Shown here piece after piece: positions 7,534 through 30,243 of a stretch of DNA of 33,414 bases. The position numbers and the translations under genes are program-made. The notes beneath the pieces were generated by a model, which was not told the DNA's origin, did not search any database, and saw nothing but the letters and a program-made list of their open reading frames with translations. Origin of the DNA: a virus. How positions within the stretch are numbered: the first letter of the stretch is position 1; each line of letters starts with the position of its first letter. Where the stretch lies: the IMG/VR virus record IMGVR_UViG_3300043395_000286, positions 1 through 33,414 of that record; one strand, written 5' to 3'.

Positions 7534-8175
7534 ATGCCATATACACGTGGTACTAGCAATAATATCATCGTTGGTGCAGCAGCGCTCTTCACACACGAAG
7601 CAGGCGTTCTAGCCGAAGGTGATCTTCCAGATTACGAAGTGAATAAGTCTTTTAAGGAATCCCTTACATCAGACTCAGCATTCCGTAACGTTGGTTATAC
7701 AATGAATGGTTTGGAACTTCAGTTCCAGCCAGATTTCGGTGAAGTTGCAGTAGATCAGGTTCTTGACGTTGCTAAGTTATTTAAGCAAGGTATGCAGGTA
7801 AACCTAAATACTACATTCGCAGAATCAACACTAGAAAATCTTCTTTTTGCACTCGCATCTAAGGATGAAAATCTAGGCTCAGTCACAGGAACAGGTCTTG
7901 GTGCAGGTTCTGCATCACTAAACCTTTCTGCAGGTGACATCGGAGAATGCCCAGTTGAGCGTGGTCTCGTAGCAGTCGGTCCTGGAACAGGTGACTGTGC
8001 CGAGTCTGAATCAATTGAAAGAATCTATGTTGCATACCGTGCACTCTCAATCGAGAATGTAACAGTATCAGCAAAGCGTGATGAAGCAACAATGTTTGAA
8101 GTTTCATTCCGTCTCCTTCCAAACGACTCTGGTTCATACGGTAAGATCGTAGATCGTACCATCCCAGCAGTATAA
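7534..8175 (+). CDS. Major tail tube protein
   Basis: The 213-residue product should polymerise as hexameric rings into the tail tube. It begins MPYTRGTSNNIIVGAAALF, a common tube-protein opening, and is beta-rich throughout with a central Gly/Ser/Ala loop (LGSVTGTGLGAGSASLNLS) and a C-terminal strand pair (EATMFEVSFRLLPNDSGSYG). A GAGGTGA Shine-Dalgarno precedes it. Arginine is nearly always CGT, as in the capsid gene, pointing to high expression. No sheath gene is adjacent, so the tail is non-contractile. A strong terminator follows the stop. It sits directly upstream of the chaperone and tape-measure genes, which supports the call. Confidence 0.85.
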   Translation: MPYTRGTSNNIIVGAAALFTHEAGVLAEGDLPDYEVNKSFKESLTSDSAFRNVGYTMNGLELQFQPDFGEVAVDQVLDVAKLFKQGMQVNLNTTFAESTLENLLFALASKDENLGSVTGTGLGAGSASLNLSAGDIGECPVERGLVAVGPGTGDCAESESIERIYVAYRALSIENVTVSAKRDEATMFEVSFRLLPNDSGSYGKIVDRTIPAV

Positions 8176-8194
8176 TACAACTTAATATCAGAAG

Positions 8195-8230
8195 GCCCAG
8201 TCATATTTGAAAAGGCTGGGCTTTTCTGTT
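8195..8230 (+). terminator. Intrinsic terminator after the major tail gene
   Basis: GCCCAGTC (8195-8202) pairs with GGCTGGGC (8214-8221) over 8 bp with one G-U pair and an 11-nt loop, followed by TTTTCTGTT. This is a classical rho-independent terminator. Confidence 0.85.
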
Positions 8231-8239
8231 TGATATAAT
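8231..8239 (+). promoter_or_regulatory. Extended -10 promoter, probably leaderless
   Basis: TGATATAAT is a TGn-TATAAT element starting directly after the terminator tail. Only six bases separate the -10 from ATG 8246, which matches the normal distance to a transcription start, so the message would begin at or next to the ATG. No Shine-Dalgarno precedes the ATG. No -35 consensus is visible. Confidence 0.6.
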
Positions 8240-8245
8240 GAAGTA

Positions 8246-8932
8246 ATGGCAACACAGGTATACGAAACAGATAATATTATTTTAATTAATGGCACTAGTG
8301 TATTTTTGACACCATTAAAAATAAAATATCTAAGACAATTTATGACTGCTTTTGAGGATGTTAAAAAAGCAAAAGATGATGCAGAAGCAATAACTGCACT
8401 AGCACACTGTGCCTTTATAACTATGCAACAATACTATCCATCAATTACAACTATAGAAGAGATGGAAGATTCAATAAATTTACCAAACATTTATAAATTA
8501 TTATGGATTGCTGCGGGAATTAAGATTAATGAAAAGGCAGAAGAGTCTGTTAAGAAACAGGCTACAGATAGCGGATCTAGTTGGGAAAATCTAGATTTAG
8601 TTAAATTAGAGTCTGAACTATTTTTGCTGGGCATATGGAAAGATTATGAAGAATTGGAATCATCATTGTCTATGCCAGAAATATTAACCACTCTAAGTAT
8701 AAAAAGAGAACTCGATTATGAAAGTAAAAAATTTCTTGCTGCCATGCAAGGCGTAGACTTAGACAAACAGGCAGGCAAAAACAATGCATGGGAAGAAATG
8801 AAGGCAAGGGTATTTAGTAAGGGTAAGACTGATAATCCAAACGACATAACAGCCCTACAAGGAGTAAACGCCCAAAGAGCAGGGTTTGGTATTGGTATGG
8901 GGCTAGACTACGAAGACCTTACTAAAAAATAA
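8246..8932 (+). CDS. Tail assembly chaperone, long form (gpGT-like)
   Basis: The 228-residue product lies where siphoviruses encode tail-assembly chaperones, between tube and tape-measure genes. Residues 9-92 align almost without gaps to the next gene: PLKIxxLRxFMTxF at 23-36, Cys55, QYxP near 62-65 and a shared ED-x-I-x-LPxxYKL block at 74-85. Residues 93-228 are an extra helical, charged domain with ESELFLLGIWKDYEELE and IKRELDYESKKFLAAMQ, ending in a Gly-rich tail. This mirrors the lambda GT protein, whose G part is extended by a T domain that contacts tube protein. Here the long form is a continuous gene needing no frameshift. It is probably read from a leaderless mRNA. Confidence 0.75.
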   Translation: MATQVYETDNIILINGTSVFLTPLKIKYLRQFMTAFEDVKKAKDDAEAITALAHCAFITMQQYYPSITTIEEMEDSINLPNIYKLLWIAAGIKINEKAEESVKKQATDSGSSWENLDLVKLESELFLLGIWKDYEELESSLSMPEILTTLSIKRELDYESKKFLAAMQGVDLDKQAGKNNAWEEMKARVFSKGKTDNPNDITALQGVNAQRAGFGIGMGLDYEDLTKK

Positions 8933-8941
8933 AGTCTGGTA

Positions 8942-8950
8942 TGGTATAAT
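8942..8950 (+). promoter_or_regulatory. Extended -10 promoter for the short chaperone
   Basis: TGGTATAAT is a TGn-TATAAT element in the 44-nt intergenic gap. Transcription would begin near 8957, ahead of AAGGAGG (8966-8972) and ATG 8977. No -35 consensus is seen. Confidence 0.5.
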
Positions 8951-8976
8951 TATTTCACTTACCTTAAGGAGGAATA

Positions 8977-9309
8977 ATGGCAGACAAAACTCAGCCATCA
9001 GATATTAAATTAATCGACGGAACAATACTAAAAGCAGTACCGCTAAAAATCTCTCTATTGAGACCTTTTATGACAAGGTTTGCAGATTTAACAAAAGTGG
9101 CGGAAGATAATGATAAGTCAATGGACGTTCTACTAGACTGTGTTCAGATTGCGCTTAAGCAATATAAGCCAGAAATTGCTGATGATCGTGAAGCATTGGA
9201 AGACAATATCGATCTCCCTACAGTATATAAACTAATCGACGTAGCGTCTGGTGTAAACCTACAAGGCGTTGATACAAACGATATTCTAAATACTGTTGGT
9301 AGAAAATAA
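8977..9309 (+). CDS. Tail assembly chaperone, short form (gpG-like)
   Basis: The 110-residue product is a paralogue of the N-terminal domain of the preceding gene. It shares PLKIxxLRxFMTxF (22-35), Cys55, QYxP (62-65) and the ED-x-I-x-LPxxYKL block (75-86), and ends soon after the shared region with a Gly/Asp/Asn-rich tail. It therefore corresponds to the short G form that coats the tape measure before tube assembly. It has its own extended -10 and an ideal AAGGAGG Shine-Dalgarno, so it is probably made in excess of the long form, as G exceeds GT in lambda. The tape measure follows after 23 nt. Chaperone function rests on position and on the paralogy. Confidence 0.75.
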   Translation: MADKTQPSDIKLIDGTILKAVPLKISLLRPFMTRFADLTKVAEDNDKSMDVLLDCVQIALKQYKPEIADDREALEDNIDLPTVYKLIDVASGVNLQGVDTNDILNTVGRK

Positions 9310-19181: not shown

Positions 19182-19816
19182 CAACCAGTGCCTATATGAC
19201 GGGTAGAAAGAAATATGGAAGACCACAAGCAATGCTATGGTCTGAAAATTCTGGTAAGTTGATAAATGGGCTATACGTCCCCAATGGTTTAGAAATAAAT
19301 GCCGATCCTGGATCTGAGGTAGACCCTGCTAATATAGATCAATTTTTAATACTATCAGATGATAATAGATCTCCTATAGATTTTGGATATAATCGTATTG
19401 AGAAAAAAGAAAGAATGATTAATGGAAGAATGAGATCTTATCATATTGCAGATAAACTGACAATATCTCTTTCATATAATAATCTACCATCAAGGGGTGC
19501 AGCCCTTCCAAATCTTTTTGGCTCAGATGGAAAAAATCGTGATGAACTAAACGGAAATAATTTACAGCATACAACTGATGGCGGTGCTGGCGGTGTTGAA
19601 CTTTTAGACTGGTATGAAAAGCATCAGGGTTCGTTTTGGTGTTATTTAGCATATGATAAATATTCTGTATTTGGAAAAGACGACAGTGCTTATGGACATC
19701 TTCCACAATATAATCAATTAGTCGAAGTTTTCTTTTCAGACTTTTCTTATACAGTAAATAGACGTGGAAACAACTTTGACTTTTGGGACATTTCAATTGG
19801 TTTAGAAGAGGCATAA
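19178..19816 (+). CDS. Distal tail / minor tail protein
   Basis: The 212-residue product starts in an ATGA overlap with the tape measure and has TTAGGAG upstream. It directly follows the tape measure, the place of Dit-like proteins that join the tube to the tip. It is beta-rich with conserved-looking aromatic segments: GRPQAMLWSENSGKLINGLY near the start, a Tyr/Ser-rich strand KLTISLSYNNLPSRG, LDWYEKHQGSFWCYLAYDKY near 140-160, and a closing strand NFDFWDISIGLEEA. The C-terminal half resembles a domain also used in other tube-like proteins. Dit function is inferred from order; the sequence is not a close match to a Dit I can name. Confidence 0.65.
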   Translation: MTTSAYMTGRKKYGRPQAMLWSENSGKLINGLYVPNGLEINADPGSEVDPANIDQFLILSDDNRSPIDFGYNRIEKKERMINGRMRSYHIADKLTISLSYNNLPSRGAALPNLFGSDGKNRDELNGNNLQHTTDGGAGGVELLDWYEKHQGSFWCYLAYDKYSVFGKDDSAYGHLPQYNQLVEVFFSDFSYTVNRRGNNFDFWDISIGLEEA

Positions 19817-22800
19817 TGTTTGATGATATTGATCTAAAAAAACATCTAGAAACATCTTCTGTAGTAAAAACAAAAACAGCAGTAATTGCTGAGTGGAATC
19901 TAAACTCTCCAACCAATATCTTAAAGATTGGAAACTATAGGTATAGACCTACTCAGCCTGACTCTTTATATAAGTTACTTCCAAATACTTTTGATCCATC
20001 AGAAAATGTAAACACATCTATTCCTTTTTATTTTAATGCAACTGACTCAGATGTAGTTATAGATGGCGGATATGATGATGATGGTTTGCCAGTAACTCTT
20101 AAGCCTAAAAAAGACAAACTTAAAATGCTTTATTCTTTAGAAGATTGTTTTAAAATGTTTAGACCAAGATCTGGAATTAATAAAGCAAGATTTATTCCAG
20201 GAAGTTATTTGCATCATCCAAACATAAATATGGCAAATAGACCAAGATATTATATGCCAGATAAAAAAGATTATTTTAAATACTGGACATCTTTTAGAAC
20301 AGAAAACGGATTAGAGTATGGAATTTCTATTGCAAAAAACGGAGAGAATGCAATTGAAGATACAGTTCCGTTTGTTGTTTATAATGAAGAAGTTGCTGCA
20401 AATAGAATTATTATTAAGATGCAAACTCATGTTGGTAACAAAGACTTAGGCACTTTTTCTTCGGCATCTAAATCAATATCAGACCCATTCTACGGAGACT
20501 CTAAGAAGTCAACCCCTGTAAGATGGAAGGTTCAAGGGCTAAAAAATAATTCGTGGTCTGACATAATTTCGTTTACACAGTCATCTACAAGAAGCGACGG
20601 CACACCAATAATAGGATCTGACGGCTATGTGGAGTTATCATATGGCCTAAAGGTGCCAAAACAATACCGTGATATTTTTATATTTGCTGAAAAGTATTCT
20701 TCAGAAACTCTTTTGCCAGAAAAATCTATTAATGGGTATTCATATTTAATTGCTGAAAACGAAAGTGACATTGGAACATTTCATATTTGGATTGATGAAA
20801 TTGAAGACTACAGGACATTCACCCCAGATTATGGATGGTATTTAGAAGAGTCTGAGGTAGATAGATTAACAAACTTTGTTACAGATATGACTAATCCACC
20901 AAAGTTTACTACTACAAATAATGTATATAAGTTTAGAGAGTTTGAAAAAATAAAAGGTTTGAGGATTGTTGTTGATACAATGAATAAGCCTAATGCTACA
21001 TTTGATTTGATAGAAATGTCACCCCGCCTTTGTGCAGACTTATCAGATAAGACTACAAATTTTTCTATTAAAAAGAATGCTTCTGACTTAGGTATTAGTG
21101 GAATGCCAGTAGGTCAGTTGTTAGCGTCTACAGGATCAATAACTATTTTTGATTATGATGATGCCTTTAACTATAATAATAATGACAGCATAATTAAAAA
21201 CTTAATTGATAAACATATTCAGTTTAAATTTTATGACATTATATTTAATGTAGATGGATGGGATTACTATGTTCCACTAAAAACATTATACTCAGATGGA
21301 TTCCCTCAAATAAATAATACAGATCAAACAGTCTCTATAGAACTTAGAGATATGTTTTTTTATTTTGAAAACATAACCGCTCCACAAACACTAATGACAC
21401 GTGTCTCAATAAGTTCTGCAATATCAATGTTGCTTGACTCTATAGGATTTTCCAACTATGTATTCAAAAGAGTAAGCGGAGAAACAGAGTTAATTATTCC
21501 ATATTTTTATATTGAGCCAGATACAAGCGTTGCTGAGGTTTTGCAAAATCTAGCAATATCTACACAGACAGCAATGTTCTTTGATGAATACAACAATTTT
21601 GTTATGATGAGTAAAGATTACATAATGCCAACACAAGATCAAAGACCTACGGACATAGTTTTCTCTGGAAATGAAAAAGAGTCTTCGGATGATATTTTGC
21701 CAAACATAGTTGAGATTTCTTCGCAGGAAAATAAAGTTTATAATGATGGAAAGATTAATTATTCTGAACGGTATATTCAAAGATCTGTTGGAACAATTAA
21801 GCAAGCAAGCATGATTGATATGGAAAGATCTTGGATCTATAAGCCAGTGTTATTATGGGAAGTCGCAGGAACAGAAAATACAAAATCAATTAATGGAGAA
21901 ACGGCATCACAATCAAGTTATACCCTATCCGCTATTCCATTAAACTCAGACTTATCTATAGAGCCTCCTTCAGTTGTTAATAGACAAGTAACAAACAATG
22001 TTATTGATTTCGGTGAAGGCATTTATTGGATAGCCAGATACAATGGATACTTTTATTCAAATGGCGAAATAATAAAATATGATGCTGTACAGTTCAATGT
22101 ATCTGGAGTTGGCAATGTTTGGATTAGTAGCAATCAAGAGTATCAGTATTATTTTTCAAATCTTCCATTTAACGGAAAGATATACCCAACTGGATTGGTC
22201 AGAATATATTCGGTTCCTAACTACGAAGAAGTTAATGGTTTTCTAAAACTAAAAAACGGATCTGTTGCTGTACATGGTAGAGGTCAGTTTGGAACAGCAA
22301 TCACTGCACATAGTGCAGGATTATCAGAATACTGGATGGACAATAACAATGTTCGTGGTTGCATGATGCAGTCTAAGTATTTGTTTGAAAATAACTTAAC
22401 TGTACCAACAACTATTGTTGGGGCTGCAGGACAAAATACTGAACTTGCAAAAAAGACTACTAGAACGGGCGTTATAAGAAATTTTATGTCTTCGGCATAT
22501 ACTGCAGAGTCTGATATAAATCAGTTTAAGCAAACAAAGCCTGGAACAATTCAGTCTTCTGCTTTGGTAATGCAAGGCCCAGCCTTCTCTGTAACAGATA
22601 AGCCAAGAGACTTTGTGTCATATTTATATAAACCATTAGATAATAGATACAAACATTTTGGCACCAGAATGAGAATTATTGGAAAAATAGAGAACGGGTT
22701 TAGCAAGGGTCAAACGGCAAATGGTAGTACAAACTACTTTGTTGTTCCAGGACTAACGCCAGATAAAGATATTACAATTTCTGGTGGCGGTGGTGGAATG

Positions 22801-24069
22801 GCCATAATGATAAATCCAGAAACTAATAACGGATATTATTTAGAACTAAGCACTTTAGGTAGTGCAAACATAACTACTCTTGAAAAACAAAATGTTCATA
22901 ATGTTATGTTTTACAAAATAAAAAAAGACTCATCTTCTTCTGATGCTATTCCAGTAAAAATTTGGGAGGGCCTAGGAAATATTATTGTCGATGATGGAAA
23001 GTTCACTGGTCAGTATAGGATGGTAGCAGAACAGAATCCTACTGTTTATGACATAGGCGTAGAGTACGAAGACATAGGAAGTGCAAGAAGATTCCATATT
23101 TATATGAATGGCTCTTTATTGACCACAGTTGTTGATCAAGATCCACTTCCAGTCTACAACAATATGGCACTCTTTGTTCGTGGGTCTTCAAGGGTTATGT
23201 TTGAAAATATATATGCCTTAACAAATAACTATAGCCAAAATACACAGTTTGCTTTAAACACTCCAGTTAATTCTATTTTTGACGATGAGATTGATGCCAC
23301 AGAGTCTTTTAGAAAGTATGCTATGAGTGGTGTAGTTCAGGGAACATACTTATCTGGAATAAGTAATTCTCAACCACCTAAGTATAGTATATACTTTGAA
23401 GAGTTTGGAACCATTATGAGAGAGGCTGCAACCTTTAATATTAAATATGATAAGGCTTATCCAGCCTTGTATGCAAAATTGTCCCCAACCTTTAATAGAA
23501 TTAAAGGATATACTGTGTCTGGATTTAGAGCAGGATCGTACGGTGCAGAGTTTATAATATTTAATGCCACAGATACTGCACTAAGTTTAGATGAAACAAC
23601 TGGCAATTATTTACGAATTCAGGGTGTAACATTTACACAACAATCTAATAATGAATTAACTGTGGATGACTATTTTACAAAAAACAGTTCGTTGTCTGAT
23701 CCAGTTATAGATGGGTCTGATGTTGTTATTTCTCCATTTAAAGTTAAAAAAGATTACGAAGATATTAAGTTGAGCAGAATGACCTATGGCAAAAAAGATT
23801 TTTCAATTTCTACGTCTTACATACAAACACAAGACGATGCAAATAATTTAATGAAATGGCTTATGTCTAAAATAAGTAAACCAAGAAAGGCAGTGGGGGT
23901 AAAGATTTTTAATAATCCTACAATACAATTAGGCGACATTGTTTCTATTAAATATACAGACAACAATATTGAAAAAATAGAAAACACCAGATATGTGGTT
24001 TATTATATGGAATATTCAAAAGACGTAGGCGGACCTGAAATGACCGTCTATCTAAGCGAGGTAATGTAA
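19816..24069 (+). CDS. Large minor tail protein / hub-like (1417 residues)
   Basis: ATG 19816 overlaps the previous stop (TAATG). An upstream in-frame ATG at 19783 would add 11 residues but lies inside the distal tail gene without a better ribosome site. Residues 1-450 are beta-rich with lectin-like or discoidin-like character (KSTPVRWKVQGLKNNSW, LKVPKQYRDIFIFAEKY). The middle has a Gly-rich loop (ISGGGGGMAIMINPET) and a jelly-roll-like segment near 1010-1140. The last 80 residues (MTYGKKDFSISTSYIQTQDD, IQLGDIVSIKY) resemble the hub domain of Tal/gp27-type proteins. It may combine tail-tip hub and carbohydrate-binding roles. Arginine is mostly AGA. No peptidase or lysozyme motif is visible. 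Domain calls are inference. Confidence 0.7.
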   Translation: MFDDIDLKKHLETSSVVKTKTAVIAEWNLNSPTNILKIGNYRYRPTQPDSLYKLLPNTFDPSENVNTSIPFYFNATDSDVVIDGGYDDDGLPVTLKPKKDKLKMLYSLEDCFKMFRPRSGINKARFIPGSYLHHPNINMANRPRYYMPDKKDYFKYWTSFRTENGLEYGISIAKNGENAIEDTVPFVVYNEEVAANRIIIKMQTHVGNKDLGTFSSASKSISDPFYGDSKKSTPVRWKVQGLKNNSWSDIISFTQSSTRSDGTPIIGSDGYVELSYGLKVPKQYRDIFIFAEKYSSETLLPEKSINGYSYLIAENESDIGTFHIWIDEIEDYRTFTPDYGWYLEESEVDRLTNFVTDMTNPPKFTTTNNVYKFREFEKIKGLRIVVDTMNKPNATFDLIEMSPRLCADLSDKTTNFSIKKNASDLGISGMPVGQLLASTGSITIFDYDDAFNYNNNDSIIKNLIDKHIQFKFYDIIFNVDGWDYYVPLKTLYSDGFPQINNTDQTVSIELRDMFFYFENITAPQTLMTRVSISSAISMLLDSIGFSNYVFKRVSGETELIIPYFYIEPDTSVAEVLQNLAISTQTAMFFDEYNNFVMMSKDYIMPTQDQRPTDIVFSGNEKESSDDILPNIVEISSQENKVYNDGKINYSERYIQRSVGTIKQASMIDMERSWIYKPVLLWEVAGTENTKSINGETASQSSYTLSAIPLNSDLSIEPPSVVNRQVTNNVIDFGEGIYWIARYNGYFYSNGEIIKYDAVQFNVSGVGNVWISSNQEYQYYFSNLPFNGKIYPTGLVRIYSVPNYEEVNGFLKLKNGSVAVHGRGQFGTAITAHSAGLSEYWMDNNNVRGCMMQSKYLFENNLTVPTTIVGAAGQNTELAKKTTRTGVIRNFMSSAYTAESDINQFKQTKPGTIQSSALVMQGPAFSVTDKPRDFVSYLYKPLDNRYKHFGTRMRIIGKIENGFSKGQTANGSTNYFVVPGLTPDKDITISGGGGGMAIMINPETNNGYYLELSTLGSANITTLEKQNVHNVMFYKIKKDSSSSDAIPVKIWEGLGNIIVDDGKFTGQYRMVAEQNPTVYDIGVEYEDIGSARRFHIYMNGSLLTTVVDQDPLPVYNNMALFVRGSSRVMFENIYALTNNYSQNTQFALNTPVNSIFDDEIDATESFRKYAMSGVVQGTYLSGISNSQPPKYSIYFEEFGTIMREAATFNIKYDKAYPALYAKLSPTFNRIKGYTVSGFRAGSYGAEFIIFNATDTALSLDETTGNYLRIQGVTFTQQSNNELTVDDYFTKNSSLSDPVIDGSDVVISPFKVKKDYEDIKLSRMTYGKKDFSISTSYIQTQDDANNLMKWLMSKISKPRKAVGVKIFNNPTIQLGDIVSIKYTDNNIEKIENTRYVVYYMEYSKDVGGPEMTVYLSEVM

Positions 24070-27517: not shown

Positions 27518-27826
27518 ATGACCGACAAACAGAAGCGATTGGCTCTGTTAAGTAGGTTTGATAAACACTATAAGTTTAAACTAGGACAGAAGCCACAATA
27601 TAATAAGTGGATTGAACAGTGGTCTGCAGATGCCCTTATTGAGTCGTATGGTTTAGATCAATGCTATGAACTATTAGAATATTATTTTGAGATTACTCAA
27701 AATCCTACGTGGAATCATTTTGCATATATATCACATGATATACTTGAAAGAATACAGGAACAAGAAAAAGATCTTAAGGACAGACATGAGCGTAGACAGA
27801 AGGCAAAGGAATGGCTAAGTGAATAA
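27518..27826 (+). CDS. Putative helicase-loader-like protein
   Basis: The 102-residue product is all-helical, with WSADALIESYGLDQCYELLE, a YYFEITQNPTWNHFAYISHD stretch and a long charged C-terminal helix (LERIQEQEKDLKDRHERRQK). It lies directly before the DnaB-like helicase, whose GTG start overlaps its 3' end by 8 nt, implying linked expression. Small helical proteins in this position are often loaders or DnaD-like primosome factors. No ATPase motif is present, so it is not a DnaC-type loader. The call is from position and composition only. Confidence 0.5.
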   Translation: MTDKQKRLALLSRFDKHYKFKLGQKPQYNKWIEQWSADALIESYGLDQCYELLEYYFEITQNPTWNHFAYISHDILERIQEQEKDLKDRHERRQKAKEWLSE

Positions 27827-29045
27827 CTCAGAATCAAAGTTAATCTCAGCAGTTCTTAAAGATAAACAAGCCCATGTTATGCTTCAGGCAAATGTTGAGA
27901 GTATATTAAAAACACATTTAGATGTTTGGCAATTCATTAGAAAATATTATGAACATAATTCTACAGTTCCGCCCGTAGAGTTAGTTGTTGAAAAGTTTAG
28001 AGATTTTGAAATTGCTGATGGTGTTGGATCAACTAAGCATCACCTTGAGGAATTGCAGGCAGAGTATCTTGTTAATAGTCTTAAGGATATTTTAAGATCT
28101 GCTGCTACAGATGTGCAGGGTGGTCTTGGGGTAGAGGCTCTTGAAACTTTGATTAGCAAGACTGCAGAACTTAGAAAAAATACAGCAGCCATTCGTGATA
28201 TCGATGTAACGGATCTTGACTCTGCTGTTGCATACTTTGAAAATCTTAAGAAGCAACAAGAAGCAGGTGCACTTGGCATTAAGACTGGACTTCCAGGATT
28301 TGATAACTATTTACCTTCTGGAATCATGCCAGGACAGTTAGGAGTCTTCTTGGCATATCCAGGTATAGGAAAGTCTTGGTTGTCTCTCTATTTCGCTGTA
28401 CAGGCCTGGAAACAGGGTCGTAGCCCAATGATCATAAGCCTTGAAATGTCTGAGGTTGAAGTACGTAATCGTGTATTTGCAATTATGGGTGAAGGCATCT
28501 GGTCTCATCGTAAATTAAGTGCGGGACAGGTAGAGATGGATATGTTAAAGTCATGGCATGCCAAGAGTGTTAAGGGTAGACCAGAATTTCATATTATCTC
28601 AAACGATACAGGTGGAGACATAACACCACTAGTTCTTCGTGGAAAGATTGATCAATATAAGCCAGACTTTGTTATTGTTGACTACTTACAACTAATGAGT
28701 CCAAACAGTAAGTCTGATAATGAAACTATTCGTATGAAGAATCTATCTCGTGAATTAAAGTTAATGGCTATTGCAGAAGAAGTTCCTATTATTGCTATTT
28801 CTTCTGCTACCCCAGACGATGTTACTAAACTTGATACCGTACCCACTCTTGGTCAAACTGCATGGTCAAGGCAGATTGCTTATGATGCTGACTGGGTCCT
28901 TGCTTTGGGCAGGGCTTCAAATAGTGACATTATAGAGTGCGTATTTAGAAAGAACCGTAATGGTTTTATGGGTGAATTCTTAGTTCAGGCTGATTTTGAC
29001 AAGGGATACTACAGATATAAGGATTATGAAGATAAGACAGTATAA
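27819..29045 (+). CDS. dnaB: DnaB-like replicative helicase
   Basis: The 408-residue product should unwind DNA at the phage fork. The GTG start overlaps the previous stop. An N-terminal helical domain (about 1-110) is followed by a linker with FENLKKQQEAGALGIKTGLP. The RecA-type core starts near GFDNYLPSGIMPGQLGVFLA. Walker A is YPGIGKSW with Lys185, and Walker B is FVIVDYLQLM with Asp288. MIISLEMSEVEV is the DnaB H1a-like region, and RKNRNG near the end fits the expected basic motif. Length is a little below bacterial DnaB. The neighbouring primase, SSB and polymerase make a replication cassette. Its stop lies inside a TATAAT. Confidence 0.92.
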   Translation: MNNSESKLISAVLKDKQAHVMLQANVESILKTHLDVWQFIRKYYEHNSTVPPVELVVEKFRDFEIADGVGSTKHHLEELQAEYLVNSLKDILRSAATDVQGGLGVEALETLISKTAELRKNTAAIRDIDVTDLDSAVAYFENLKKQQEAGALGIKTGLPGFDNYLPSGIMPGQLGVFLAYPGIGKSWLSLYFAVQAWKQGRSPMIISLEMSEVEVRNRVFAIMGEGIWSHRKLSAGQVEMDMLKSWHAKSVKGRPEFHIISNDTGGDITPLVLRGKIDQYKPDFVIVDYLQLMSPNSKSDNETIRMKNLSRELKLMAIAEEVPIIAISSATPDDVTKLDTVPTLGQTAWSRQIAYDADWVLALGRASNSDIIECVFRKNRNGFMGEFLVQADFDKGYYRYKDYEDKTV

Positions 29046-29046
29046 T
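29041..29046 (+). promoter_or_regulatory. TATAAT close upstream of gene 29054 (leaderless candidate)
   Basis: TATAAT overlaps the helicase Val-stop codons and lies 7 nt before ATG 29054, which has no Shine-Dalgarno. This would fit a leaderless message. No TGn and no -35 are present, so it is weaker than the other elements. Confidence 0.3.
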
Positions 29047-29053
29047 ATGCGGT

Positions 29054-29380
29054 ATGGAATCATATCAGCACAAGCCTATCAAAAGGTTTGGTTTGGACGG
29101 AGTTATCAATGATGACTCTGCCATATATAGGTTACAGCAGGAATATATCAGACTGCTGGTATCTGAAATGCGCCTATCTGGATATGTTCCAAGATTTGAC
29201 ATTGATCCACAATTTACAATAGAATATAATGAAAAAAATAATACATACAACTTTATACTAAGCATATACGGAATATACATAGGGAGAAAGAAAAGCGAAT
29301 GGACACTAGGAGTAGACGGCACGAAGCCAATTCATATACAGCCAACCAAATTAAAAGAGTACTCGCAGGATCTGGCTTAA
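29054..29380 (+). CDS. Small hypothetical protein between helicase and primase
   Basis: The 108-residue product has a helical middle (AIYRLQQEYIRLLVSEMRLSG) and a beta-rich part (YNEKNNTYNFILSIYGIYIG) with a short C-terminus. No Shine-Dalgarno precedes ATG 29054. The 3' 82 nt overlap the primase gene in a different frame. I do not recognise a family. The dense placement within the replication cassette suggests a replication or nucleotide-related accessory protein, without direct support. Confidence 0.6.
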   Translation: MESYQHKPIKRFGLDGVINDDSAIYRLQQEYIRLLVSEMRLSGYVPRFDIDPQFTIEYNEKNNTYNFILSIYGIYIGRKKSEWTLGVDGTKPIHIQPTKLKEYSQDLA

Positions 29381-30243
29381 ACATAGAAAAAGAAGCAGAG
29401 TCTGAGTATGTCGTATTCTGTCCATTCCATGCAAACCATAGAACCCCTGCTGGAGAAATAAATAAATATAGCGGTCTGTTCTTTTGTTTTTCTTGTAGTC
29501 ACACCGCAGACTTAATAGAGTTAGTAATGCACTGCTCTAATAGAACATATTTTGAGGCTGTTAGATTTATTAAAAGTAAAGAAGTAGAAACAGATATTGT
29601 TTCTGATATTTCTTCTAAGTTAGTTGAAAAAGAAGAATGGCCAGAGTTAGATATGGCTATAGTAAATAAACTATATGAGCAAGCATTAAAAAGCGACAGA
29701 GCAATTCAATATTTTACTAAAAGAAAAATAACTCAGGATTCTGTAAAAAAGTTTAAACTTGGGTATTCTGAGAATCAGGACATGGTAACTATTCCCGTAC
29801 AAAACCACGAAGGCTTGTGTGTGGGCTTTGTTGGAAGATCCGTAGAAGGCAAAACATTTAAAAATACCAATGGGCTTCCTAAGTCAAAACTATTGTTTAA
29901 CTTAAATCGTGTTAAGACTGCAAGTCGTGTTTATGTTGTAGAGTCATCGTTTGATGCTATAAGACTTGATCAGGTTGGACTACCCGCAGTCGCTACCCTT
30001 GGTGCTAATGTGTCATCAAAACAAATAGGTTTGCTTCAGAAATACTTTAGCGATATAATGATTATTGCTGATAATGATGAGGCAGGCGGTAATATGAAAG
30101 ACAAGATAATCGAAAGATTAGGCTCTCAGGTTACTGTAATAAATATAGAGAAACAATATAAAGATATAGGCGATATGGATGATATGTCAATAAAAGAACT
30201 GGACTTACAGTTTGACAAATCAATACTGTCTATGCTAAAATAG
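29299..30243 (+). CDS. dnaG: DNA primase (CHC2 zinc finger + Toprim)
   Basis: The 314-residue product should lay RNA primers. The N-terminal CHC2 zinc finger uses Cys41, His44, Cys63 and Cys66 (CPFH and CFSC). The Toprim core has Glu215 in VVESSFDAI and the Asp258-x-Asp260 pair in IIADNDEAG. It is primase only; the C-terminal helicase domain of T7-type fusions is absent, in line with the separate DnaB gene. The start lies 82 nt inside the previous gene; later Met codons would remove the zinc finger, so the overlap is required. AGGGAGA is upstream. The last bases contain the promoter for the SSB gene. Confidence 0.92.
   Translation: MDTRSRRHEANSYTANQIKRVLAGSGLNIEKEAESEYVVFCPFHANHRTPAGEINKYSGLFFCFSCSHTADLIELVMHCSNRTYFEAVRFIKSKEVETDIVSDISSKLVEKEEWPELDMAIVNKLYEQALKSDRAIQYFTKRKITQDSVKKFKLGYSENQDMVTIPVQNHEGLCVGFVGRSVEGKTFKNTNGLPKSKLLFNLNRVKTASRVYVVESSFDAIRLDQVGLPAVATLGANVSSKQIGLLQKYFSDIMIIADNDEAGGNMKDKIIERLGSQVTVINIEKQYKDIGDMDDMSIKELDLQFDKSILSMLK
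30212..30241 (+). promoter_or_regulatory. Near-canonical promoter for the SSB gene
   Basis: TTGACA at 30212-30217, an 18-bp spacer and TAAAAT at 30236-30241, with TGC directly before the -10, make the best sigma-70-type promoter in the window. It lies in the 3' end of the primase gene and would serve the SSB gene at 30266 (AAGGAG upstream of its ATG). Confidence 0.65.

Follow-up and report, generated by a model that had tools for sequence, protein, structure and literature searches.

Few recoding events of tailed phages are as well conserved as the frameshift in the genes of tail assembly chaperones (TACs); in lambda the slippery heptamer is GGGAAAG. From the region between the tail tube and tape measure genes, lambda produces gpG, which consists of the N domain alone, and gpGT, in which N is joined to a T domain (PMC5009743). 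The ratio of the two forms is about 30:1 (PMC5009743) and has been described as crucial both in lambda and in TP901-1 (PMC5009743; PMC4493119), and a permanent G-T fusion in TP901-1 gives particles that appear complete and are non-infectious (PMC4493119). The BK1 phages have likewise been described as -1 frameshifting (PMC10793280).

The principle of a two-gene TAC is already known, as T4-like phages have been reported to encode a short TAC and a long, fused one in two genes instead of using a frameshift (Vladimirov et al., 2022, as summarized in PMC10885494 and PMC12859696). For some Microbacterium EA phages, two chaperone ORFs are said to be expressed separately, with no evident frameshift, in a passage that is silent on whether both ORFs are paralogues (PMC7302621).

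Here, we describe a linear 33.4-kb virus record from IMG/VR (hereafter the window, meaning the whole stretch of DNA that was analysed), in which a long chaperone (GT) and a short one (G) are encoded by neighbouring genes. As in T4-like phages, two paralogous genes provide the short form and the long fused one. The T4 genes, 26 and 51, are however divergently transcribed whereas GT and G are arranged in tandem; gp26 and gp51 show weak similarity to each other (E 2e-6), and alignment of the window family to the single T4 sequences with hhalign gives a probability of ~1%. T4-like phages further represent a different lineage, while the split between a leaderless and a Shine-Dalgarno (SD)-led start and the close frameshifting sisters are features of the window's group. 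Lambda shares with the window the N and N plus T forms and their location (PMC5009743), but the window has two genes and two promoters, lacks the slippery site and has an N domain without sequence similarity to that of lambda. With the Microbacterium EA phages, which are phages of actinobacteria and are compared by description only, it has in common a chaperone locus for which no frameshift is recognised (PMC7302621). Within the open-access literature searched, which yielded no report of a leaderless start in a two-gene TAC, four features appear to be new: the separate lineage, the tandem order of GT and G, the conservation of the leaderless/SD split and the existence of living sisters that frameshift.

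Organization of the locus

The structural module of the window has the order MTP, GT, G and tape measure gene, and the GT/G pair sits between the major tail protein (MTP) and tape measure protein (TMP) genes in the related loci as well. The features of the region are as follows.

7534..8175, + strand: MTP gene (context); phrog_2175, E 2e-29; 44-47% identity to annotated MTPs of Streptomyces phages
8191..8232, + strand: terminator-like hairpin with T-run in the gap between MTP and GT; GAAGGCCCAGTC / GGCTGGGCTTTT
8231..8239, + strand: extended -10 of GT, TGATATAAT, 6 nt upstream of the ATG; leaderless arrangement
8246..8932, + strand: GT, long TAC with N and T in frame; ORF of 228 aa
8246..8536, + strand: N (G-like) domain of GT; phrog_10504; 42% identity to the 110-aa protein
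8582..8929, + strand: T domain of GT; phrog_10474; aligns with the T ORFs that Streptomyces phages and locus L157 have in the -1 frame
8942..8950, + strand: extended -10 of G, TGGTATAAT; conserved in relatives
8966..8972, + strand: SD of G, AAGGAGG; conserved in relatives
8977..9309, + strand: G, short TAC with the N domain alone; ORF of 110 aa
9333..19181, + strand: TMP gene (context), 3282 aa; adjoins G; its N-terminus aligns with the tape measure proteins of relatives

A preliminary description of this DNA had proposed that its 228-aa and 110-aa ORFs, which are present at 8246-8932 and 8977-9309, are related along residues 9-92 and that an additional C-terminal domain is confined to the first. 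The relationship itself is confirmed, but the limits given for it were too narrow, since BLASTP aligns residues 1-94 of GT with residues 1-95 of G (42% identity and 64% positives over 96 columns, E=2e-21), and the profile-profile comparison covers residues 1-99 (E=5.7e-39). Both proteins match phrog_10504 (GT, E 6e-21; G, 8e-17), while phrog_10474 is matched by GT alone, at residues 130-218, so that the N domain is common to both forms and the T domain is found in the long one only, as had been proposed.

Two layouts among related loci

The locus was compared with 313 loci fetched from IMG/VR and from a genome scan, many of which are near-copies or overlap, including Streptomyces phages of the Stanwilliamsviridae that were found by tblastn in phage records. 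Two layouts are seen. About 240 of the 313 loci, the window among them, have the order MTP, fused N-T, N and tape measure (237 complete loci plus partial ones and locus L143), whereas in about 60 a single N gene follows MTP, with T behind it in the -1 frame and then the tape measure gene (57 loci, some partial ones, and the contig L247, which belongs to a metagenome-assembled genome). A frameshift gene accompanied by a second G occurs in none of the 313 loci, nor does any of them show a fused GT devoid of G: the two loci in which G is not detectable, L012 and L039, are contig pieces that stop shortly past GT, and a separate G is kept in every fused locus that is long enough to reveal one. The need for a separate G beside a fused GT would be explained by the non-infectious particles of the TP901-1 fusion mutant.

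In L143, two unrelated genes separate GT from G, and G has nevertheless retained a -10 and an SD of its own, as would be expected if both genes are expressed as separate units. The insert itself (L143:3794-4865) comprises one gene with a sub-threshold match to 2OG-Fe(II) oxygenases and one DUF6817 gene.

The Streptomyces phages Annadreamy, BillNye, JimJam and Tomas have homologous N and T domains in the same gene order as the window but, unlike it, a single G gene that is overlapped by T in the -1 frame; their shift region contains CCCAAAT or CCCGGAA. In the Streptomyces phages L001-L004, the T ORF has often been deposited as a separate "hypothetical protein" with a start of its own and is not joined to G, although a -1 shift fits. 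From the kinship with these phages one might guess that the host of the window virus is an actinobacterium.

Origin of the two-gene state

In quick trees rooted on the Streptomyces phages, the fused loci form one clade both for the T domain (support 98, and 87 with wider sampling) and for TMP (support 93), while they are not a single clean clade in the MTP tree. As all outgroups frameshift, parsimony suggests that the two-gene state is the derived one, and a single origin is favoured, as it most simply arose once. With wider sampling the frameshifting T domains may, however, also form one clade (AU 0.71), so that the direction of the change rests mainly on the outgroups.

We consider it well supported, with a probability of roughly 0.8, that a one-gene frameshifting ancestor gave rise to two genes, GT and G, whose ratio is set by two expression signals instead of by the efficiency of a slip. 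The ancestor would have made gpG and gpGT from a single gene via -1 frameshifting; one copy would then have lost the slippery site and the stop and would now be read in frame into the T domain, while the other would have retained the N domain alone. The preliminary description had suggested that duplication took the place of recoding here, and the paralogous tandem genes, the frameshifting relatives and the loss of the slippery site in the two-gene group all agree with this suggestion, which was made without mention of the two-gene TAC of T4-like phages.

The N-domain tree adds a complication. All G proteins form one clade (98) within the G proteins of the frameshifters, whereas all N domains of GT (GT-N) form one clade (82) outside of them, a position that does not fit a simple late duplication. 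One could thus imagine that the extra copy does not stem from a local duplication but that G (or GT) was acquired by recombination from a related frameshifting phage, and the far higher identity of G than of GT-N to the frameshifting G proteins (0.61 vs. 0.44) would be in line with this. However, fast evolution of GT-N can push it outward in the tree, AU tests reject neither a grouping of GT with G (p 0.31) nor one of GT with the frameshifters (p 0.43), and the T domain of GT sits with the aquatic frameshifters and not outside of them. From our point of view, recombination is hence unlikely, albeit a serious alternative, and the result would be identical either way, namely two genes without a frameshift.

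The mean identity among loci is 0.68 for G and 0.53 for GT-N (257/276 pairs), and together with the identities to the frameshifting G proteins these sequence comparisons identify G as the conservative copy and GT-N as the faster evolving one. Once the two forms no longer had a coding sequence in common, GT-N could have diverged from G. With moderate confidence, we also propose a more detailed scenario, in which duplication replaced the frameshift, a leaderless GT with a weaker promoter and an SD-led G with a stronger one set the stoichiometry, and the divergence of GT-N led to a specialised coat of mixed chaperone subunits around the tape measure protein.

Loss of the slippery site

Among the 41 distinct single-gene sequences, G and T overlap in the -1 frame in all cases, and 39 carry a perfect X_XXY_YYZ heptamer ~37-46 nt upstream of the G stop, which is GGGAAAC or GGGAAAT, as in the lambda type, in 29 sequences and CCCAAAC or CCCAAAT in 10. 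The two remaining sequences, of the JimJam and Tomas types, have CCCGGAA in the shift region, and L247 has CCCAAAC. The single-gene state with a -1 slippery site at the homologous position is hence present in relatives of the window. The lambda-type combination of a T in the -1 frame with a conserved heptamer is found in 39 of the 41 single-gene relatives and is absent from the window.

In the fused group, GT runs through the linker in the former T frame, and SGSSWENLDL of the window corresponds there to GGSWEELDL of the frameshifting phage Annadreamy. No conserved slippery heptamer is present in the linker of 109 fused genes, which contain 13 AAAAAAA runs and a few other heptamers at scattered places, and the 43 representatives have just 4 in-frame heptamers of the GGGAAA or CCCAAA type. 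The 3' end of G likewise lacks a conserved heptamer in this group, and a slip at the G stop would extend the product by a median of only ~7 codons. A hidden frameshift within the fused GT or at the G stop was rejected on these grounds, and the proposal that the window's locus works without a frameshift is borne out by the in-frame fusion of GT and by the lack of a conserved heptamer in the linker and at the 3' end of G. We also considered whether CTAGA in the GT linker is a vestigial G stop that has been kept as a signal; this was rejected as well, as the Leu-Asp codons vary freely, with TTAGAT being the commonest form.

The AAAAAAA runs, which lie in frame in the linker region of 13 of the 109 fused genes, could mean that the GT gene still makes a short form by slippage, similar to the termination in dnaX, with G being an extra or specialised copy. 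As the runs are neither conserved nor present in the window's own linker, and as every locus of sufficient length has retained a separate G, we consider this very improbable.

Expression signals of GT and G

Signals were counted in 43 diverse representatives and in 122 distinct loci, with shuffled sequences as control. In 38 of the 43 representatives, the spacing between an extended -10 and the ATG of GT is exactly 6 nt (shuffle mean 1.5, maximum 6), and the -10 is preceded by TG in 41/43 for GT and equally in 41/43 for G. The hexamer is perfect in 46 of the 122 loci for GT as opposed to 120 for G, where TATAAT is located 20-38 nt upstream of the gene. None of the 122 loci has an SD of at least 4 nt upstream of GT, whereas one of at least 5 nt precedes G in 115 of them; among the representatives, the SD of G comprises at least 4 nt in all 43 and at least 5 nt in 39, and SDs are also found at the MTP genes and at most TMP genes. 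GT can therefore be classified by sequence criteria as a putative leaderless gene, given a -10 spacing that fits a transcript start at the start codon and the absence of an SD. Within the window alone the leaderless motif, like the other signals, does not exceed chance frequency, and its strong conservation is seen across the relatives.

In frameshifting relatives, the -10 is placed further upstream and an SD is present. The gap between MTP and the next gene measures 91-120 nt in the frameshifters, except for one outlier, but 59-84 nt in fused loci, as if the leader of GT had been lost. All 43 representatives have a terminator-like hairpin between MTP and GT (shuffle mean 1.65), and none has one between GT and G. 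The suggestion that GT and G each have a promoter, GT being leaderless and G led by an SD, is thus substantiated by the conservation of both extended -10s and of the SD split across the relatives.

Taken as a mechanism, the terminator would end transcription from MTP, and the weaker extended -10 would then yield a leaderless GT mRNA at a modest level. G would exceed GT because it has a near-perfect promoter and a strong SD of its own and, as no terminator lies between the two genes, would also gain from read-through from the GT promoter. By analogy with lambda, many copies of G and few of GT would coat the tape measure protein, with the T domain recruiting MTP. The protein ratio of G to GT is in this way inferred to be set by the signals described, while paralogy, in-frame fusion, loss of the slippery site, frameshifting relatives and outgroups, and conserved separate promoter motifs are shown by the sequences themselves. 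In mycobacteria, ~14% of the genes are leaderless, and a reporter study found similar translation but lower predicted transcript production for leaderless constructs (PMC7148126). A low output of GT is not certain, as translation of leaderless mRNAs can equal that of some mRNAs with a leader.

Recoding has thus been abandoned in nature, and the control of the ratio has apparently passed to a pair of promoters and to translation starts of two different kinds. The change has been retained across a large and diverse clade of aquatic phages, with frameshifting sisters still present, which makes it testable whether the ratio alone matters or the shared N domain as well.

Chaperone identity

Homologues of the window proteins in Streptomyces phages carry a TAC annotation, and within the family phrog_1932 ("tail assembly chaperone") is reached by 7 of 66 members (best 3e-4) and phrog_344 by one. 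When AlphaFold2 models were compared with predicted viral structures, Foldseek matched them to an annotated TAC with a probability of 1.00, and for the G model this match has a TM of 0.73 and an rmsd of 2.0. A sequence search against solved structures gave nothing notable, Foldseek returned no significant match of the GT model in the PDB, and the HK97 TAC (2ob9) came joint first among solved chains with Z 4.3, tied with unrelated folds. Synteny, family membership and predicted fold together support the assignment of both GT and G as tail assembly chaperones. That the 110-aa protein could instead be a diverged paralogue with another task, e.g. a regulator, is conceivable since its direct matches to solved structures are weak and its chaperone role is a predicted one, but seems highly doubtful to us for the more conserved copy, which is closer to the frameshifting G proteins, directly precedes the tape measure gene in all complete loci and has a model that agrees with an annotated TAC.

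The families phrog_10504 and phrog_10474, which are listed with "unknown function", correspond to the N and T domains of the window's chaperone family. Many aquatic virus contigs thereby gain an interpretable chaperone locus in place of such an entry.

Further features of the window

Behind the tape measure gene lies an ORF of 1428 aa (19783-24069) with zero Pfam matches at E 0.01. Downstream of the tail module, a DnaB-like helicase is encoded at 27819-29045, and a primase that combines a zinc ribbon and a Toprim domain at 29299-30243. A possible further leaderless start is located at 29038-29056, where CAGTATAAT ends 7 nt before the ATG of an ORF at 29054 that lacks an SD.
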